This document shows, piece by piece, positions 9,396 through 36,548 of a stretch of 43,809 bases of DNA. Below the pieces are notes generated by a model. It had not been told where the DNA came from. It ran no database searches and was given only the letters and a program-made list of their open reading frames with translations. Made by a program: the position numbers and the translations under genes. The stretch's first letter is position 1. Every line of letters starts with the position of its first letter. Source of the stretch: Candidatus Iainarchaeum sp. (GTDB lineage: Archaea > Iainarchaeota > Iainarchaeia > JAGGVJ01); the NCBI GenBank assembly GCA_021158055.1, contig JAGGVJ010000038.1, positions 1-43,809 of the forward strand. Direction: 5' to 3'.

Positions 9396-9740
9396 ATGGT
9401 GTTTGACAGCAAGGGTCTGAACCACATAAGAAAAAGGCGAAACGGTTACATAGATTACGAAAAGTACCCGCATCCTAACAAGTGGATGAAAATCATTGAC
9501 AAAATTGTGATTTTTAGTGGTTTTGCGGGTTTTTTGATTACCCTGCCGCAAATAACACGCATCTGGATTGACAATGTAACCGCGGGTGTGTCGCTTGTTT
9601 CCTGGATGGGTTATTTTGTGATTGCGGTTACCTGGATAATTTACGGGCTGGTGCACAAGGAAAAGTCAATTATAATCACAAATGTGTTGTGGGTTTTGGC
9701 CCACACCATGATAATTGTGGGACTTTTGATTTACGGGTAA
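9396..9740 (+). CDS. SemiSWEET-type sugar transporter
   Basis: The 114-aa protein has a basic cytosolic N-terminus of about 35 residues and then three membrane helices with the PQ-loop signature FLITLPQITRIW, followed by NVTAGVSLVSWMGYFVIAVTWIIYGLVHKEKSIIITNVLW. This is the layout of bacterial/archaeal SemiSWEETs, which work as dimers to move sugars by facilitated diffusion. The 3' end overlaps the 3' end of purFD by 65 bp in the opposite orientation. GGGAG upstream may be its ribosome-binding site. Confidence 0.8.
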   Translation: MVFDSKGLNHIRKRRNGYIDYEKYPHPNKWMKIIDKIVIFSGFAGFLITLPQITRIWIDNVTAGVSLVSWMGYFVIAVTWIIYGLVHKEKSIIITNVLWVLAHTMIIVGLLIYG

Positions 9741-12636
9741 GGTTGCAGGCGCCTATTTCTTTCATGTGCTCTATTCTTTTCTGCAGCAGCTTTGGTGTGC
9801 CGATGTCGCTTCTGTAACGCACGTTTCCCTTGACTTTCATGCATGCTTTTTCTGCTTTTTCCTGCGCCTCGTCTATGGTGTCTGCAACTGCGACGATTCC
9901 AAGCGCTCTTGAAGAGCTCATGAACAGTTTTCCCTGTTGTTGGTTTACTGACGCAAAGTAAATATTGACTCCTTCCTGCGCCTCGTCCTCTATGCTTCTT
10001 ATGTCAACTTCGTCACCGCTTGACGGGTTGTCCGGATATCCTTTCGGAACAAGGTATTTGCATACTGTTGCCTTGTCGGAGAATTTTACGTCAATGTCTT
10101 TCAGTTTTGTTGCGGTTATTGCGCGGCAGATTTCAACAAGGTCTGTTTCAAGCAGTGTTAGCGCGTTTATTGCTTCGGGGTCGCCGAGCCGCGCGTTGTA
10201 TTCAATGAGCTTGACTCCGTTTTTTGTTGCTATGAACCCGCCGTACATTATTCCTTTGTATTTTTGCTTTGTTTCAGCCAGTATTGCCTTGTTGACTTCA
10301 ATGGTGATGTCGTGTGCCTGCCTGATGTGGCTTTTGGTTATGAACGGAAGGCCTTTGCATGCTCCGTTGTATGACCCCATACCTCCGGTATTCGGTCCTG
10401 TGTCGTCTTCAAATGCTCTTTTGTGATCCTGTATTGGCGGCATGTCAATCACTGTTTCACCGTCAACAAAGGACTGCAGGCTGAATTCTTCCCCTGCAAG
10501 CTTTTCTTCAATTACTGCCTTGTTTCCCTGCGCAAATATTTCTTTGCAGTAATCAATCCCGTCCTGAACGGTCTGCAGGTGTTCTCCCTGCACTTTTACT
10601 CCTTTGCCTCCTGTAAGGCCGTCTGGCTTGACAACAAATCCTGTGTCCTGAAGTGATTCCAGGAATTCTTCAAGTCCTTGCGTTGAGGAGAATATTTCAA
10701 ATTTGGGGTTTCCGAAGATGTTGTGTTTTTTCAAAAGCAGTCTTGTAAACGATTTGCTTGTTTCAAGTTTTCCGAGTTCTTTTTTCGGCCCTACTGACGG
10801 GATCCCCATTTTTTCAAGCTCGTCTGCAACACCTGCTGAAATGGGCAGCTCTGGTCCGATGAACGCAAATTCGGGTTTTGTTTGTTTTGCAAATTCAACT
10901 ATCGCGGAAACGTCATCCAATGCGCCGATTTTTATCTGCTCGGACAATCCTGCAATTCCCGGGTTCATTGCGTTCATGAATGCGTAGATTTTGGGTTTTG
11001 ACACGCTTTTTTTCAGGGTTTCTGCTATGATGTGTTCTCTCGCGCTGTTTCCGATGACAAGGATTTTGGGGTGTTTTCCCGCATTTTGCGCTTGTGTCGC
11101 GTGGTCTGCAGCGGTTTCACCTTCAGTTGCGGTGGTTTTACCTTCAAGGCCTTCGGTTATTGCTGTGTGGGGGCTGTTGTTTGAGTTGATTTCTTCTGTT
11201 CTTTTTTTTGCTATCTCTTCAAGGGTTGTTTGTTTCATTTTTATCGGGTAGTTGCCGTCCAAACACGCGGTGCACAGGTTTTCACAGCCGATTGCTTTTT
11301 TCAGCCCCTCGATTGTCTGGTAGGTTACGGTGTCTGCACCGATTTCCTGTGCTATTTCGGCTTCGGTTTTGTTGTTTGCTATGAGCTCGTCTTTTGTGGG
11401 CATGTCTATCCCGTAAATGCACGGGTACATGATCTTGGGGCATGTTGAGATCATGTGAACGCTTTTCGCGTCGGATTTTTTGAGTTTTGCAATGAGTTTT
11501 GCGCTTGTTGTGCCGCGCACTATGCTGTCATCAATTATGGCTATTTTTTTCCCTGTCACTTCGTGTTTTAAGGTGTTTATCTTGAGGTTTGCCGCGTCTT
11601 CTCTTTCGCTTTGGGTGGGCATTATGAATGTTCTTCCGATATACCTGTTTTTTATTAATCCTTCCCTGTAAGGCACTTTTATCTTTTCCGAGAATGCAAG
11701 GGCTGCGGTCCGCGAGGTGTCCGGGGCGGCTATGACCACGTCAACTTCTATGTTTTTTTTGTCTTGTTTTTTTGCCCATTCATGCACAATTTCTTCACCG
11801 AGTCTTTGCCTTGTTTTGTAAACGCTTTTTCCGTTGAGGTCTGAGTCAGGGCGGGCAAAGTATACATATTCAAACATGCAGTGAGAGTAAGTGTCTTCAA
11901 CAAGTTTTTTTCTGCAGATCCCTGTCTCGCGGTCTATAATGACAATTTCTCCTGGCTGCACGTCATCAACAAGCTCAAAATCCAATGCATCGCAGGCAAC
12001 TGTTTCTGAGGCGATCAGATAACTTTTCCCTGTTGGCTCTTTTTTTTCTCCTATTACAAGGGGTTTGATTCCTTTGGGGTCGCGGAATGCAATGAGTCCT
12101 ATTCCTTTGATTATCCCCACTATTGAGTAACTTCCAATCGCTTTTTCCATGAATTTCCGGGTTGCGGCAATAACATCTTGTTTTGTGGGCTTTTCCCTGT
12201 TGTTGACATGCATCTCATGCTTTAAAAGGAGTGAAAAGACCTGCATCAGGCCTTCAAGGTCGCACTGTGAACTGAGTGAAATGTTTTTGTCCCACAGCCA
12301 TTTTTTAAGTTCTTCGTAGTTTATGGTGTTTCCGTTGCTTGCCATTGCAATTTCTATTGGAAGAGATGTAAAAAACGGTTGCGCGTTTTTGCGTGTGCAT
12401 GCCCCGGCTGTTGTGTATCTTACATGCCCTATGCCGATGTTGCCCTGAAGTTTCGAAAGATTGTGGTCTTTGAAAGTTTGGGTCACAAGACCTTTCTTTT
12501 TTCTTATTCTGATTTTCCCGTCAAAAAGAGTCGCGATCCCAACTGAATCCTGGCCGCGGTGCTGCAGAGAAAGCAGTGACTGATAAATTTTTTTAGATGT
12601 GTTTTCATTAGAAAGTATTCCAACTATCCCACACAT
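9676..12636 (-). CDS. purF-purD: PurF-PurD fusion: amidophosphoribosyltransferase + GAR synthetase
   Basis: One 986-aa frame joins the first two enzymes of purine synthesis. Residues 1-475 are PurF: N-terminal nucleophile Cys2 (MCGIVGILS), LSLQHRGQDSVG, the PRPP loop IAIIDDSIVRGTTS (about 365-378) and GIDMPTKDELIA. Likely iron-sulphur ligands are Cys253, Cys406, Cys455 and Cys458, as in Bacillus-type PurF. A linker of about 45 residues rich in Thr, Glu and Ala (478-520) leads to PurD: KILVIGNSAREHIIAETL, the ATP-grasp loop VVKPDGLTGGKGVKV, IQDHKRAFEDDTGPNTGGMGSY and YNARLGDPEA. The fusion would pass unstable phosphoribosylamine directly to the ligase. No other purine genes are nearby. Confidence 0.93.
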   Translation of the reverse strand: MCGIVGILSNENTSKKIYQSLLSLQHRGQDSVGIATLFDGKIRIRKKKGLVTQTFKDHNLSKLQGNIGIGHVRYTTAGACTRKNAQPFFTSLPIEIAMASNGNTINYEELKKWLWDKNISLSSQCDLEGLMQVFSLLLKHEMHVNNREKPTKQDVIAATRKFMEKAIGSYSIVGIIKGIGLIAFRDPKGIKPLVIGEKKEPTGKSYLIASETVACDALDFELVDDVQPGEIVIIDRETGICRKKLVEDTYSHCMFEYVYFARPDSDLNGKSVYKTRQRLGEEIVHEWAKKQDKKNIEVDVVIAAPDTSRTAALAFSEKIKVPYREGLIKNRYIGRTFIMPTQSEREDAANLKINTLKHEVTGKKIAIIDDSIVRGTTSAKLIAKLKKSDAKSVHMISTCPKIMYPCIYGIDMPTKDELIANNKTEAEIAQEIGADTVTYQTIEGLKKAIGCENLCTACLDGNYPIKMKQTTLEEIAKKRTEEINSNNSPHTAITEGLEGKTTATEGETAADHATQAQNAGKHPKILVIGNSAREHIIAETLKKSVSKPKIYAFMNAMNPGIAGLSEQIKIGALDDVSAIVEFAKQTKPEFAFIGPELPISAGVADELEKMGIPSVGPKKELGKLETSKSFTRLLLKKHNIFGNPKFEIFSSTQGLEEFLESLQDTGFVVKPDGLTGGKGVKVQGEHLQTVQDGIDYCKEIFAQGNKAVIEEKLAGEEFSLQSFVDGETVIDMPPIQDHKRAFEDDTGPNTGGMGSYNGACKGLPFITKSHIRQAHDITIEVNKAILAETKQKYKGIMYGGFIATKNGVKLIEYNARLGDPEAINALTLLETDLVEICRAITATKLKDIDVKFSDKATVCKYLVPKGYPDNPSSGDEVDIRSIEDEAQEGVNIYFASVNQQQGKLFMSSSRALGIVAVADTIDEAQEKAEKACMKVKGNVRYRSDIGTPKLLQKRIEHMKEIGACNLTRKSKVPQLSWCGPKPTTHL

Positions 12637-32108: not shown

Positions 32109-32207
32109 GGGCCCGTAGCTCAGTCTGGCTAGAGGAATTTTTTTTCCGGCTAAAGCACCTGACTCTTAATCAGGGAGTCGCGGGTTCAAATCCCGTCGGG
32201 CCCGCCA
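32109..32207 (+). tRNA. tRNA-Lys(CTT) with 21-nt insertion in the D arm
   Basis: Acceptor GGGCCCG pairs with CGGGCCC, and GCCA is encoded at the 3' end. Anticodon stem CCTGA/TCAGG encloses CTCTTAA (anticodon CTT, 32165-32167). The T arm is GCGGG TTCAAAT CCCGT. Between D-stem GCTC...GAG and the closing C lies GAATTTTTTTTCCGGCTAAAG (32135-32155); removing it gives a normal D arm GCTC-AGTCTGGCTA-GAGC. The insertion can fold GGAA/TTCC around T4 and is flanked by GGCTAGAG/GGCTAAAG. No clean bulge-helix-bulge is seen, so splicing is not proven. A PH-like gene reads antisense into it. Confidence 0.9.
32135..32155 (+). other. Candidate D-arm intron in tRNA-Lys(CTT)
   Basis: Twenty-one nucleotides, placed with a one-base ambiguity, interrupt the D arm at its 3' strand. 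The same insertion, one T shorter, is in the tRNA-Lys(TTT) gene at 36477-36496. Conservation in two separate genes argues against a read error. Archaeal tRNA introns at non-canonical positions are known; one in the D arm this short would be unusual. Confidence 0.6.
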
Positions 32208-32658
32208 GTTTTTTCATTGCGCTAATCAGTTTTTTTGGGTTTTGGCAGTAAAAATTTGTGTTTTTGATTTGTCCGCAGTCAGTCTGCAATATTTTGATGT
32301 TTGGCTGTTTGTCAAAGCTGCTTATCAAAACCAGTTGTTCTTTTAGGGTGGGGTGATTTTTTCCAGGGAGTTCGTGCACTTCTGTTATGTCTTTTAGTTT
32401 TATTGCTGTTATAACCGGACCGCATTGGATTACAAGTTCGTCGCTTCGCAGTTTTATTTTTCTTGCAGTAAAAAATAGGACCACGGCAGCCGTTATGGTT
32501 GCCAGGAATGCAAACACGGTTGCCTTGAAATAAAAAAGTGTGCTTGTTGACTGGAATAATGTGATTGCCATTATTGCGGATGGAAAAATCAGGAGTGCTG
32601 TTGCGCCGACCCATATCAGATCTATTCTGCCTGTTTCTTCAAAAAGAATTTCTCTCAT
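32170..32658 (-). CDS. PH-domain-like membrane protein
   Basis: The 162-aa protein has two membrane helices (LIWVGATALLIFPSAIMAITLF and FKATVFAFLATITAAVVLFFTA) followed by a bacterial-PH-like domain (RSDELVIQCGPVITAIKLKDITEVHELPG ... NPKKLISAMKKL), as in the DUF304/bPH families. The frame has no stop before the tRNA-Lys gene and ends inside it, so the last 11 residues (AGPTGFEPATP) are antisense tRNA. This tail is a familiar tRNA read-through signature; the functional protein ends earlier in sequence terms. Confidence 0.6.
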   Translation of the reverse strand: MREILFEETGRIDLIWVGATALLIFPSAIMAITLFQSTSTLFYFKATVFAFLATITAAVVLFFTARKIKLRSDELVIQCGPVITAIKLKDITEVHELPGKNHPTLKEQLVLISSFDKQPNIKILQTDCGQIKNTNFYCQNPKKLISAMKKLAGPTGFEPATP

Positions 32659-32810
32659 GGTTGTTCCCTTTGTGTGAGCTGCGCAAATTTCAAATATGTT
32701 CTATTTTAGATGTATTCTATAATAATCTATATGATATATAATTTATATGACAGATTACTGTAAATTGTTTGCCTGCTATCTGCCCGGGGCAGGGGTTGTT
32801 TGGTGTTGAA

Positions 32811-33641
32811 ATGGTTTCTTTGAGTAATATTGTGGTTCCTTTGAAGGAGTCTTTTGAGTTCATGCGCAGTGAGCCGAAGGTTTTTTTGCCAAGGGTTTTT
32901 ACAACGGTTCTTTGGAGCTTTTTCATGCTTTATTATGTCAAGGTGCTGACAAGGTTTACTGTGGAGTTCATGGTTTCTCTTGACCCGCTGGCAATATTGA
33001 ATTACGCTCAGGATTTCCAGGTATTGCTTGTTTTGATTTTGCTTCTTGAATTGCTTGACGTGATTGTTTCGGGAATTTATCCTGCTTTGGTTGAACAGCT
33101 CAAGAGAAAAGAGCAGGTGAGTTTTTCAAGGGCTTTGAGTTCAATGAAAAACGCGATCCCGACGCTTTTGCTGGTCAGCGTGTTTATGATTGCCCTCTCG
33201 TTTTTGTTGATTTTTGCAGTGTTTGCATTGATTTTGTATTCGTTTTCATTTTCTGATCTTTTGTTTGGAATTTCACTGAGTTTTGCGGTGTTGCTGGCCG
33301 CAATGGTTTTGTTGGTTGTTCTTTACGTGATTTTTTATTTCAGTTTTCCGATAGCTGTTCTTGAAAGAAAAGGGTTTTTTTCAACTGTCGGGTCAAGCTG
33401 GTCTGTTGGAAAGCAAAATTTTGCACTGGTTCTTGCGATGTTTGCTGTTTCCATGGTTTCCGCGTCAATTGTTTCTTTTTCAGAGATTACTGTCCAGACA
33501 AACCCTGATGTCGCCGTGGCTGCGCAGGTAATTGGGGTAGTGGGGTTTTTGTTTTCAAGACTTGTAAATTTGCTTTCAGTCACTTACAATTCAGTGCTGA
33601 ATACAGACGTTTACCTGAATATTCCAGGTCCGTCAAGCTAA
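32811..33641 (+). CDS. Polytopic membrane protein, paralogue 1
   Basis: I choose ATG 32811 (MVSLSNIVVPLKESFEFMRSEPKVF). The protein of about 276 aa has roughly six membrane segments and a motif FPIAVLERKGFFSTVGSSWSVGKQNF before the fifth, which matches PVVVFEKKGVFESVKRSFSHGRKNYF in the gene at 34201. This motif is typical of archaeal and bacterial DUF4013/DUF7544-like and glycerophosphodiesterase membrane-domain proteins. Function unknown. The IS605-type element lies directly downstream. Confidence 0.7.
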   Translation: MVSLSNIVVPLKESFEFMRSEPKVFLPRVFTTVLWSFFMLYYVKVLTRFTVEFMVSLDPLAILNYAQDFQVLLVLILLLELLDVIVSGIYPALVEQLKRKEQVSFSRALSSMKNAIPTLLLVSVFMIALSFLLIFAVFALILYSFSFSDLLFGISLSFAVLLAAMVLLVVLYVIFYFSFPIAVLERKGFFSTVGSSWSVGKQNFALVLAMFAVSMVSASIVSFSEITVQTNPDVAVAAQVIGVVGFLFSRLVNLLSVTYNSVLNTDVYLNIPGPSS

Positions 33642-33743
33642 CTGTTTGTTGTTTGTGAAATATATTAAAAAGGCAGTGAATATGTATTAACCTTTCCGTA
33701 AGTCCCATTCCGGAAGGGAGGAGGTAAAGCAAAAGCATATAAG

Positions 33744-33762
33744 TTACTTTGCTTATAAGTAA
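33744..33762. promoter_or_regulatory. Dyad before the RHH gene
   Basis: TTACTT (33744-33749) and AAGTAA (33757-33762) form a perfect 6-bp inverted repeat with 7-nt spacer ending 3 bp before the RHH start codon. RHH proteins commonly bind such short dyads to control their own promoter. Confidence 0.45.
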
Positions 33763-33765
33763 TGT

Positions 33766-33897
33766 ATGGTTGATGTAAAGAATGTAAAAATTGACAAAGA
33801 GGTATGGAAAAAACTATACCTCCTGCGGATACAAAATAACAAGAAAAGCATAAGTGAAATGATAAAGGAAATTGTTGAAAAATATGAAAGCATATAA
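33766..33897 (+). CDS. Small ribbon-helix-helix (RHH) protein
   Basis: This 43-aa gene is too short for the track. It reads MVDVKNVKIDKEVWKKLYLLRIQNNKKSISEMIKEIVEKYESI: a short strand (NVKID), helix 1 (EVWKKLYLLRIQ) and helix 2 (SISEMIKEIVEKY), the RHH/CopG/Arc pattern. Its end overlaps the tnpB start (ATGAAAGCATATAAG). Archaeal IS605-type elements often carry such a gene ahead of tnpB. It probably regulates the element. Confidence 0.75.
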   Translation: MVDVKNVKIDKEVWKKLYLLRIQNNKKSISEMIKEIVEKYESI

Positions 33898-34099
33898 GTA
33901 TAGGGTTTATCCTTCAAAGGCACAAGCCATAGAAATTGACAATCAGATTGAGTTTTGCAGGAAAACTTTCAATGAATTGCTTTCGCTGAAAAAACTCGCC
34001 TACAATCAATATAGGGCAAGTCTTGGAAGAAAACACCTGTATTCAGAAGTAAAAGGCACTAAAGAAGTTGTACAAGCAAACAGCAAGCATTGTCAATGA
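33884..34099 (+). pseudogene. tnpB: tnpB remnant with internal deletion
   Basis: From ATG 33884: MKAYKYRVYPSKAQAIEIDNQIEFCRKTFNELLSLKKLAYNQYRA is the N-terminal helix-turn-helix part of TnpB/OrfB. After KHLYSEVKG the frame jumps into the gene's last nucleotides; in the original frame that end reads TSKQQALSMNQEAPPVRVE, but here it is out of frame (KEVVQANSKHCQ). About 300 residues with the nuclease core are missing. The track start (TTG 33872) is too early. Confidence 0.8.
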
Positions 34100-34200
34100 A
34101 TCAGGAAGCCCCACCCGTCAGGGTGGAGTAGTTCACATAAGAATTATGCATTATTATTATTATCCGGAGACAGTTGTTTGTTATTGCAAGGGGTGGGTTT

Positions 34201-35124
34201 TTGAAGTCGTTTGATTCAGCAGTAAGGTTGTTTAAGATCCCGACAAGGTTTGCGGATGCTTATTACCCGTACATTGTTCATGTTGCGGTGTCGTCAATAC
34301 TGTTTATGTTTTTGGTGAATGTTTTTTTTCTGTCTTTTAGCAGTTTAATGACCGGCTTGTTCGCAAACCCGGCGTTGATTTCAGCACTGGAAGAAAGTTC
34401 TTCGCCGGAACAAGTGTTTGAATCAATGCTGTTTTTTCTTTCAACAATAATCCCAAACCTGATAACTGTTTTCATTTTGTTTGTTGTTGCGGTGTTTGTG
34501 GCTTATTCCTGGATTGATGCCATGTATGTGTATTTTGTCAGCGGTGTTTATTCAAAGAAAAAAAGTTTAATAGAAGATTCGGCAAGAAAAGCGGCTTCAG
34601 CGGCGCCCACGGTGTTTTTTGCAAATATGGTTGTTACCGGGTTGGTTTTTTTGATTACTTTGTTTTTGACGCTTTTGTTTTTCTTCCATCTTTTTTTGAA
34701 TCCGATCGGTTTTGCGGGCTATCTTTCAACTGCCCCGGGAGTTGTTTCTATGGCGGTTAGTCTGCTGGCGTGGATATTCACCCTGGCAGTTGTCTTGTTT
34801 TTGATGTCGCCGTTTTTTATGCTTGTTGTGCCGGTGGTTGTTTTTGAGAAAAAAGGTGTTTTTGAATCCGTTAAAAGGTCGTTTTCTCACGGCCGCAAAA
34901 ACTATTTTTCTTTTCTTGCATTCAATGTGATTTACATGCTGGCAGTGATGCTTGTCGGGATAGCGATGTCTGTTTTGTATTATATTATCCTTATTCCCTT
35001 GGTTGGCCCTATTTTGTTTGCTGTTTTCACGATAGTTTTTGAAGCGTATTTGTTTGCAGTTGCAGGCTCAATGCCAACAGTGCTATACCTGGATTACGTT
35101 AAAAGATCAAAGCCTCCGCTTTGA
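34201..35124 (+). CDS. Polytopic membrane protein, paralogue 2
   Basis: TTG 34201 (MKSFDSAVRLFKIPTRFADAYYPYIVHVAVSS) follows a strong AAGGGGTGGG, so it is preferred over the tracked start at 34174. The product of about 307 aa has six or seven membrane segments and shares the VPVVVFEKKGVFESVKRSFSHGRKNYF motif with the gene at 32811. The two paralogues were probably adjacent before the IS605-type element landed between them. Function unknown. Confidence 0.7.
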   Translation: MKSFDSAVRLFKIPTRFADAYYPYIVHVAVSSILFMFLVNVFFLSFSSLMTGLFANPALISALEESSSPEQVFESMLFFLSTIIPNLITVFILFVVAVFVAYSWIDAMYVYFVSGVYSKKKSLIEDSARKAASAAPTVFFANMVVTGLVFLITLFLTLLFFFHLFLNPIGFAGYLSTAPGVVSMAVSLLAWIFTLAVVLFLMSPFFMLVVPVVVFEKKGVFESVKRSFSHGRKNYFSFLAFNVIYMLAVMLVGIAMSVLYYIILIPLVGPILFAVFTIVFEAYLFAVAGSMPTVLYLDYVKRSKPPL

Positions 35125-35361
35125 TTTTGGTAGCCACTGCGTTTATTTCAGCAGTGGTTTGCAGACGGATGAAGCGGGGTTTTAAAGTAAAAAAGGATTG
35201 CATGCAAACAAAAACTTATGCACGCATAGAATAGTTTATATAATCAGAAAAAGATATATTGAAATATGTATTTTAAATGATATATTTTTAAGAATATGCT
35301 ATCTATTTTATATTATTTTTTAGGTGTTTAGTTTATATCTGACAATTCACTTAAATCTATT

Positions 35362-36303
35362 ATGGAATCCGAAGTTGGATTTGACCCTAAATTGCTTGTG
35401 TTTGGAAGCACTTCTTTTGACAATCTCACCACTCCGATGGACAGGCAGCAGGTGGCTGGAGGGGCGGGGTATTATTCGGCTTGCGCGGCATCTTTTTTTA
35501 CTAAAGTGAAATTTCTTTCAAATATCGGACTTGATTTTCCTTCGCAGTATGTCGGTCTGATTGAGCGCCTGGGTGTTGATGTCAGCGATGTTTCGTTTGG
35601 AGGCAATTGCGCGCGTTTTCACATAACTTATGAGGATTTTCAGGATGCTAATTATGACTTTATAGATTTTGGGGTGTGCAAGGAACCGGTTGTTATCCCG
35701 GAGTCTGCAAAACAGATAAAAAATGTTCATTTTGCAACTTTGAACAGTGACATTTTGCTTGATTCGATTGATGTTCTCGGAAAAAGAAAGATTTATTCAA
35801 TGGATTCTCATTCAAGTGTTTTTAAACTGTTTCCTGACCAGTTTGTAGAAAGTATTTCCCGCGTTAAGGTCTTGTTTCTGAATCACGAGGAGGCAAGGAT
35901 GATTTCCTGCAGGAACAATGTGTCGGACACGATTGATGAGCTCCTTTCAGTCGGTCCGGAAATTGTTGTAATAAAGCAGGGAAAACACGGGGCTGTTGTC
36001 GGTTCAAAGAAGTTCAGCTTCAAGGTGCCGACTCTAAACGCATTGCAGGTTGTTGATCCGACGGGTGCGGGGGACTGTTTCAGTGCTTCTTTTGCAGGTT
36101 ATCTTGCGCAGTCAAAAAAGCGCATGACTTTGAATTCTGTGTTTGAGGGATTAATGCATGCAAGCGCGGTTTCTGCATTGGTTATTCAGGATTTCGGCCC
36201 GAATAAGTTGTTTTCGGTAAGCCGCAAGGACATATCCAATGTCATGGATACTGCAAGCTGCGGCGTGGACCTGGATCTGGAAAAGGCGGTTGCAAATTAT
36301 TGA
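35362..36303 (+). CDS. PfkB/ribokinase-family carbohydrate kinase
   Basis: The 313-aa protein has the PfkB N-terminal Gly pattern VAGGAGYYSACAASFF and the C-terminal signature VVDPTGAGDCFSASFAGYL with the anion hole and catalytic Asp. Between them are NHEEARMIS and VVIKQGKHGAVVG as in ribokinase-type enzymes. Candidate substrates are a sugar, nucleoside or sugar phosphate; Cys-rich spots (CGVDLDLEKA at the end) are unremarkable. It is followed by tRNA-Lys(TTT). Confidence 0.88.
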   Translation: MESEVGFDPKLLVFGSTSFDNLTTPMDRQQVAGGAGYYSACAASFFTKVKFLSNIGLDFPSQYVGLIERLGVDVSDVSFGGNCARFHITYEDFQDANYDFIDFGVCKEPVVIPESAKQIKNVHFATLNSDILLDSIDVLGKRKIYSMDSHSSVFKLFPDQFVESISRVKVLFLNHEEARMISCRNNVSDTIDELLSVGPEIVVIKQGKHGAVVGSKKFSFKVPTLNALQVVDPTGAGDCFSASFAGYLAQSKKRMTLNSVFEGLMHASAVSALVIQDFGPNKLFSVSRKDISNVMDTASCGVDLDLEKAVANY

Positions 36304-36450
36304 ATTTAATCAATTGCAGGTATTTTTCCAAAGGCCAATAAAAAGATAATCAAATACTAATAAAAACAGTTTCATACATAATATATTATACTTTTTTGCC
36401 AAAAAACATATTTTTAGTAAATTTAACTCATGCAGCTGATTTTTATTTGC

Positions 36451-36548
36451 GGGCCCGTAGCTCAGTCTGGCTAGAGGAATTTTTTTCCGGCTAAAGCACC
36501 TGGCTTTTAACCAGGGAGTCGCGGGTTCAAATCCCGTCGGGCCCGCCA
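36451..36548 (+). tRNA. tRNA-Lys(TTT) with 20-nt insertion in the D arm
   Basis: Acceptor, D, T and variable arms equal those of the tRNA-Lys(CTT) gene. The anticodon stem is CCTGG/CCAGG around CTTTTAA, giving anticodon TTT (36506-36508). CCA is encoded. The D arm carries the insertion GAATTTTTTTCCGGCTAAAG (36477-36496), one T shorter than in the other copy. Removal restores GCTC-AGTCTGGCTA-GAGC. The tracked minus ORF 36310-36588 is only antisense translation of this tRNA. Confidence 0.9.
36477..36496 (+). other. Candidate D-arm intron in tRNA-Lys(TTT)
   Basis: Twenty nucleotides at the same place as in the CTT isoacceptor. The only difference is T7 instead of T8 in the loop of the GGAA/TTCC mini-hairpin, as expected if the loop is under little constraint. 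Confidence 0.6.

Follow-up and report, generated by a model that had tools for sequence, protein, structure and literature searches.

Predicted very short bulge-helix-bulge introns in the D arm of both tRNA-Lys genes of a Candidatus Iainarchaeum genome

Both tRNA-Lys genes of this Candidatus Iainarchaeum sp. genome, located in the window (the whole stretch of 43,809 nucleotides analysed here), bear a short insertion in the D arm. As judged from their sequence, the two insertions are very probably archaeal tRNA introns of a very short bulge-helix-bulge (BHB) type, spliced out at position 22/23. Cleavage and ligation of the two precursors are presumed, while the features observed comprise the BHB motif, the cloverleaf restored upon excision, introns found in other genomes at this very site, further D-arm introns in this genome, and genes for EndA and RtcB. 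The initial annotation is supported where it proposed a very short non-canonical intron.

Interrupted genes, splice motif and spliced products

Both genes lie on the forward strand. The tRNA-Lys(CTT) gene, including its insertion, spans positions 32109-32207 and is composed of a 5' exon corresponding to tRNA positions 1-22 (32109..32132), a putative 21-nt intron at 22/23 (aggaattttttttccggctaa, 32133..32153), and a 3' exon extending from position 23 to the encoded CCA (32154..32207). Likewise, the tRNA-Lys(TTT) gene, which spans positions 36451-36548 with its insertion, comprises a 5' exon (36451..36474), a putative 20-nt intron at 22/23 (aggaatttttttccggctaa, 36475..36494), and a 3' exon that also ends with the encoded CCA (36495..36548). 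The coordinates and the common site initially given for the insertions were confirmed, with a run of eight T in the CTT gene (21 nt) and of seven in the TTT gene (20 nt). This T7/T8 difference, which could be partly due to homopolymer sequencing error, is the sole indel between the two copies and falls in the predicted loop of the intron, while the 78-nt exons present three differences, at the 31-39 pair and at anticodon base 34. A shared intron fits such near-identical bodies, which may have arisen by intragenomic duplication or gene conversion. No other tRNA-Lys genes were found in the genome, a draft of 1.15 Mb in 45 contigs with 95% completeness, the tRNA complement of which was compiled from Rfam hits and from scripted and manual splicing.

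The hallmark of archaeal tRNA introns is a BHB: bases of the 5' exon and the 3' end of the intron pair over 4 bp, and each strand has a 3-nt bulge that contains the cut site. The initial annotation had seen no clear motif of this type, but a 3-4-3 BHB sits at 22/23, where a GGCU/GGCU helix of 4 bp is bordered by the bulges AG^A and AA^A, one on each strand. In tRNA-Lys(CTT), the first strand of the central helix (GGCU, 32127..32130) is predicted to pair with the second one (GGCU, 32148..32151); the 5' bulge AG^A (32131..32133) would be cut after 32132 and the 3' bulge AA^A (32152..32154) after 32153, while the inner helix would be formed by GGAA (32134..32137) and UUCC (32144-32147). In tRNA-Lys(TTT), the corresponding strands are GGCU at 36469..36472 and at 36489..36492 for the central helix, and GGAA (36476..36479) and UUCC (36485-36488) for the inner one, all on the forward strand as in the CTT gene. 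The 4-bp GGAA/TTCC stem initially described corresponds to the inner helix of the intron, and the near-repeats reported around the insertion are present, their nature being that of the two GGCU strands of the splice motif plus the bulges.

When all the possible cuts were tried, 22/23 was the one register combining a full BHB with a restored D stem. With the letters of the insertion shuffled, an equally good motif was obtained in approximately 1 out of 800 cases (~0.12%); to be counted, a shuffled insertion had to offer a central helix of 4 bp and an inner one of 4 bp or more, in a register leading to an identical product. Two features of the motif count against an intron: the central helix pairs as G.U, G-C, C-G, and U.G, the two G.U pairs weakening it, and only one outer pair occurs beyond the bulges, with no outer helix besides the D stem, in departure from the strict hBHBh' form. 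The motif is of the relaxed HBh' form, which is likewise accepted, with the D stem possibly taking the place of the outer helix h.

In the proposed mechanism, the GGCU of the D loop in the 5' exon would pair with the GGCU near the 3' end of the intron, forming the 4-bp central helix, while GGAA and UUCC would close the intron into a hairpin with a loop of U. EndA, the splicing endonuclease, would cut each bulge between the second and the third base, and the exons would then be joined, probably by RtcB, yielding an ordinary tRNA-Lys with the normal D stem GCUC/GAGC.

As the initial annotation had anticipated, removal of the insertions gives a normal D arm: in silico excision generated a perfect GCUC/GAGC D stem and clean lysine cloverleaves, and in the fold of the spliced CTT form the acceptor, D, and T stems were all correct. 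ARAGORN recognised the spliced sequences as tRNA-Lys(ctt) and tRNA-Lys(ttt), with scores of 122.4 and 123.1, whereas the unspliced genes were miscalled as Gly(TCC) and Arg(CCG), with scores of 109.2 and 112.6. The latter identities were rejected as artefacts of the insertion hairpin, which was taken as the anticodon arm, the true anticodon arm being taken in turn as a long variable arm. The introns would thus explain the Gly/Arg mislabels by a standard tool; in general, genes concealed by introns can make the tRNA complement of such genomes seem incomplete.

Introns in other tRNA genes and in other genomes

The search for similar insertions in the other tRNA genes of the genome (G000), which the initial annotation had suggested, revealed D-arm introns beyond lysine, in Arg(TCT), Arg(GCG), Arg(CCT), Gln(TTG), and Leu(GAG), at sites other than that of the lysine genes. 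Three of these loci lie in G000:C16:81300-85200, one on contig C36, and one on C23, and several of the five genes score below the Rfam cut-off in a whole-genome search. The introns of the three Arg genes are located immediately 3' of the D-loop GG, and that of Gln(TTG) forms a GUGG/CCAC helix. Further interruptions, with positions assigned by hand, occur in Thr(TGT) at 30/31 and in Asp at 29/30 and 37/38, and canonical 37/38 introns were found in many other tRNA genes. In addition, a probable elongator tRNA-Met (G000:C36:21340-21620) has a very long anticodon intron containing a C-box-like GTGATGA, which may host a C/D guide RNA.

The presence of similar D-arm introns in Arg, Gln, and Leu genes indicates that the lysine insertion is an ordinary kind of intron and refutes its restriction to the two lysine isoacceptors, which had initially been considered. 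Since the lysyl-tRNA synthetase is an ordinary class I enzyme and other isotypes are interrupted as well, co-evolution with this synthetase is not needed as an explanation, and a lysine-specific D-arm insertion tied to it was rejected.

Relatives belonging to the same class were compared with this genome. The D arm of tRNA-Lys was uninterrupted in 92 out of 95 genes read, so the normal tRNA does not include the insertion; five of these 92 genes presented introns on the anticodon-stem side. The three interrupted D arms were those of the two genes described here and of tRNA-Lys(CTT) of G046, a relative with a stretch identical to the Diapherotrites record JAFCCK010000075. At the identical site, the G046 gene bears a 44-nt intron with the same bulges AG^A/AA^A, a UGGU/GCCA central helix, and a GAAAAG/CUUUUC inner helix, hence with letters changed and pairing kept. 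Outside the class, tRNA-Lys of bin1329 (CP070804), attributed to another phylum, the Aenigmatarchaeota, has an insertion at the same site, with a GGCU/GGCC helix, read by hand, and the same bulges. A pattern scan of all GTDB species genomes yielded two further cases only, which is an undercount due to the narrow pattern, as this requires the present type of D arm together with an AAA bulge and possibly omits the genome of the window itself. A like pattern gave three matches in the 156 genomes of the class of bin1329, corresponding to bin1329 and to two fortuitous matches in D arms without introns. A looser motif was observed in tRNA-Ala(GGC) of G039, identified by hand and bearing G3-U70, which has two introns, one of them at 22/23.

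These observations bear on the alternative, also raised in the initial annotation, that the insertion is retained and that the D arm of mature lysine tRNAs is enlarged by an additional hairpin. The full-length genes still match the tRNA family in Rfam (57.2 and 58.2 bits, with a D loop of 27-28 nt), the full-length sequence folds well, and the enlarged loop could be closed by a D stem of 3 bp (GCU/AGC). However, such an arm would be neither limited to lysine, given the D-arm introns in five more tRNA genes, nor conserved in relatives, where nearly all tRNA-Lys D arms are uninterrupted; moreover, the same-site insertion of G046 has complementary helices in spite of its different length, and removal of the insertion raises the ARAGORN score and turns the call to Lys. 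We therefore regard a retained insertion as very unlikely.

A second alternative maintains that the introns are excised in another register (GGCU^A ... GGCU^A), based on a CUGG/CCGG helix. The central helix of this competing register (C-G, U.G, G-C, G-C) is the stronger of the two, which weighs against splicing at 22/23, and is likewise flanked by 3-nt bulges. Nonetheless, its product contains a C13-A22 mismatch in the D stem and obtains lower ARAGORN scores (119.8-120.5 vs 122.4-123.1), and the precursor folds worse (-32.7 kcal/mol, compared to -35.7 kcal/mol with GGCU/GGCU). On account of the mismatch, the score, and the fold, this register was disfavoured; it is also unavailable in G046 and leaves a broken D arm in bin1329, making it hardly credible. 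Lastly, disrupted pseudogenes or an assembly artefact, which the 45-contig draft and the error-prone T7/T8 runs might suggest, can be virtually dismissed, as the exons are intact, the same insertion occurs at two separate loci, and no further tRNA-Lys genes were found in the genome.

Introns at 22/23 of the BHB type are therefore the preferred reading, and both their kind and their site are already known. Non-canonical intron sites at 20/21, 22/23, and 25/26 have been described in Crenarchaeota/Thermoproteales and in Nanoarchaeota (PMC4090602), and the introns reported here share with them the position 22/23, the BHB logic, the occurrence in several isotypes of a single genome, and the existence of genes with multiple introns. 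They differ in belonging to a Diapherotrites class with a single EndA of the homotetramer type, in being 20-21 nt long, and in the lack of an outer helix. In the split tRNA-Lys(CUU) of Nanoarchaeum and Staphylothermus (PMC3218864), tRNA-Lys is also broken at a non-canonical BHB site, but this site is 30/31, whereas the present genes are continuous and interrupted at 22/23. An incomplete literature search retrieved no published description of tRNA introns in Diapherotrites/Iainarchaeota. The lysine introns would thus add a DPANN lineage to those with this known phenomenon; the more novel question is that of the enzyme.

The splicing endonuclease

The most fruitful suggestion of the initial annotation, to classify the splicing endonuclease, led to a single EndA of the homotetramer type. 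The gene (locus at G000:C16:6574-6828) encodes a protein of approximately 170 aa with both Pfam domains, which aligns from end to end with 1A79, the homotetrameric enzyme of M. jannaschii, with no insertion relative to it, and lacks the third catalytic residue, Lys156. A gene encoding RtcB is present as well. Within the class, exactly one EndA gene was found in 73 out of 87 genomes, and two in none of the 87. With the sites of the crenarchaeal CSL and of the ARMAN ASL loops placed in the alignment by our own reading, a CSL/ASL-like insertion was absent in 29 of 30 class EndAs, the remaining one having four extra residues there. According to M. jannaschii numbering, Tyr115 and His125 are conserved in all 30 sequences, while Lys156 is replaced by Thr in 29 and by Ile in one. 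A loop RGKK/RGAK, lying between these residues, is typical of the class and carries lysines.

Relaxed BHB introns (hBH, HBh', and BHL) are associated with the broad-specificity (alpha-beta)2 and epsilon2 EndAs (PMC6379350; PMC12397907), a review indicating these as the only types cutting relaxed BHB efficiently (PMC6379350) and a structural study of 2025 tying EndA loops to intron variety (PMC12397907). The lysine introns resemble those of such systems, with one flanking helix weak or absent, but no second EndA gene occurs in this class and the CSL/ASL-like insertion is nearly always missing. According to the rule stated in the review, introns ordinary in kind are thus found beside an unexpected type of enzyme; that the EndA of the class is single-subunit, a type said to be inefficient on relaxed motifs, and devoid of the catalytic lysine is a point against the intron reading. 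The EndA may be an active homotetramer. A second EndA subunit is possibly encoded in the missing 5% of the genome, though no member of the class shows one.

We consider it evenly balanced that relaxed BHB introns located in the D arm and the anticodon stem of many tRNAs in this Diapherotrites class are excised by an alpha4 EndA with a Tyr-His-Thr site and devoid of CSL/ASL. If true, this enzyme would break the rule limiting such activity to (alpha-beta)2 and epsilon2 forms and would imply a different catalytic solution; the coexistence of many D-arm introns with a single loop-less EndA without the catalytic lysine makes this lineage a direct test of the rule of endonuclease-intron co-evolution. 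As for the aenigmatarchaeotal bin1329 (CP070804), two EndA genes were observed, encoding a 399-aa three-unit, epsilon-like protein and a 204-aa single one, in which the position of Lys156 reads Ala.

Other features of the window include an IS605-type OrfB/TnpB remnant between the two tRNA-Lys genes (33766-34120), with the HTH_OrfB_IS605 domain only and located behind a 43-aa ORF. On the reverse strand, positions 9679-12636 encode a protein of 986 aa, in which an amidophosphoribosyltransferase-like part, comprising glutamine amidotransferase and phosphoribosyltransferase domains, is fused to phosphoribosylglycinamide synthetase (PurD).
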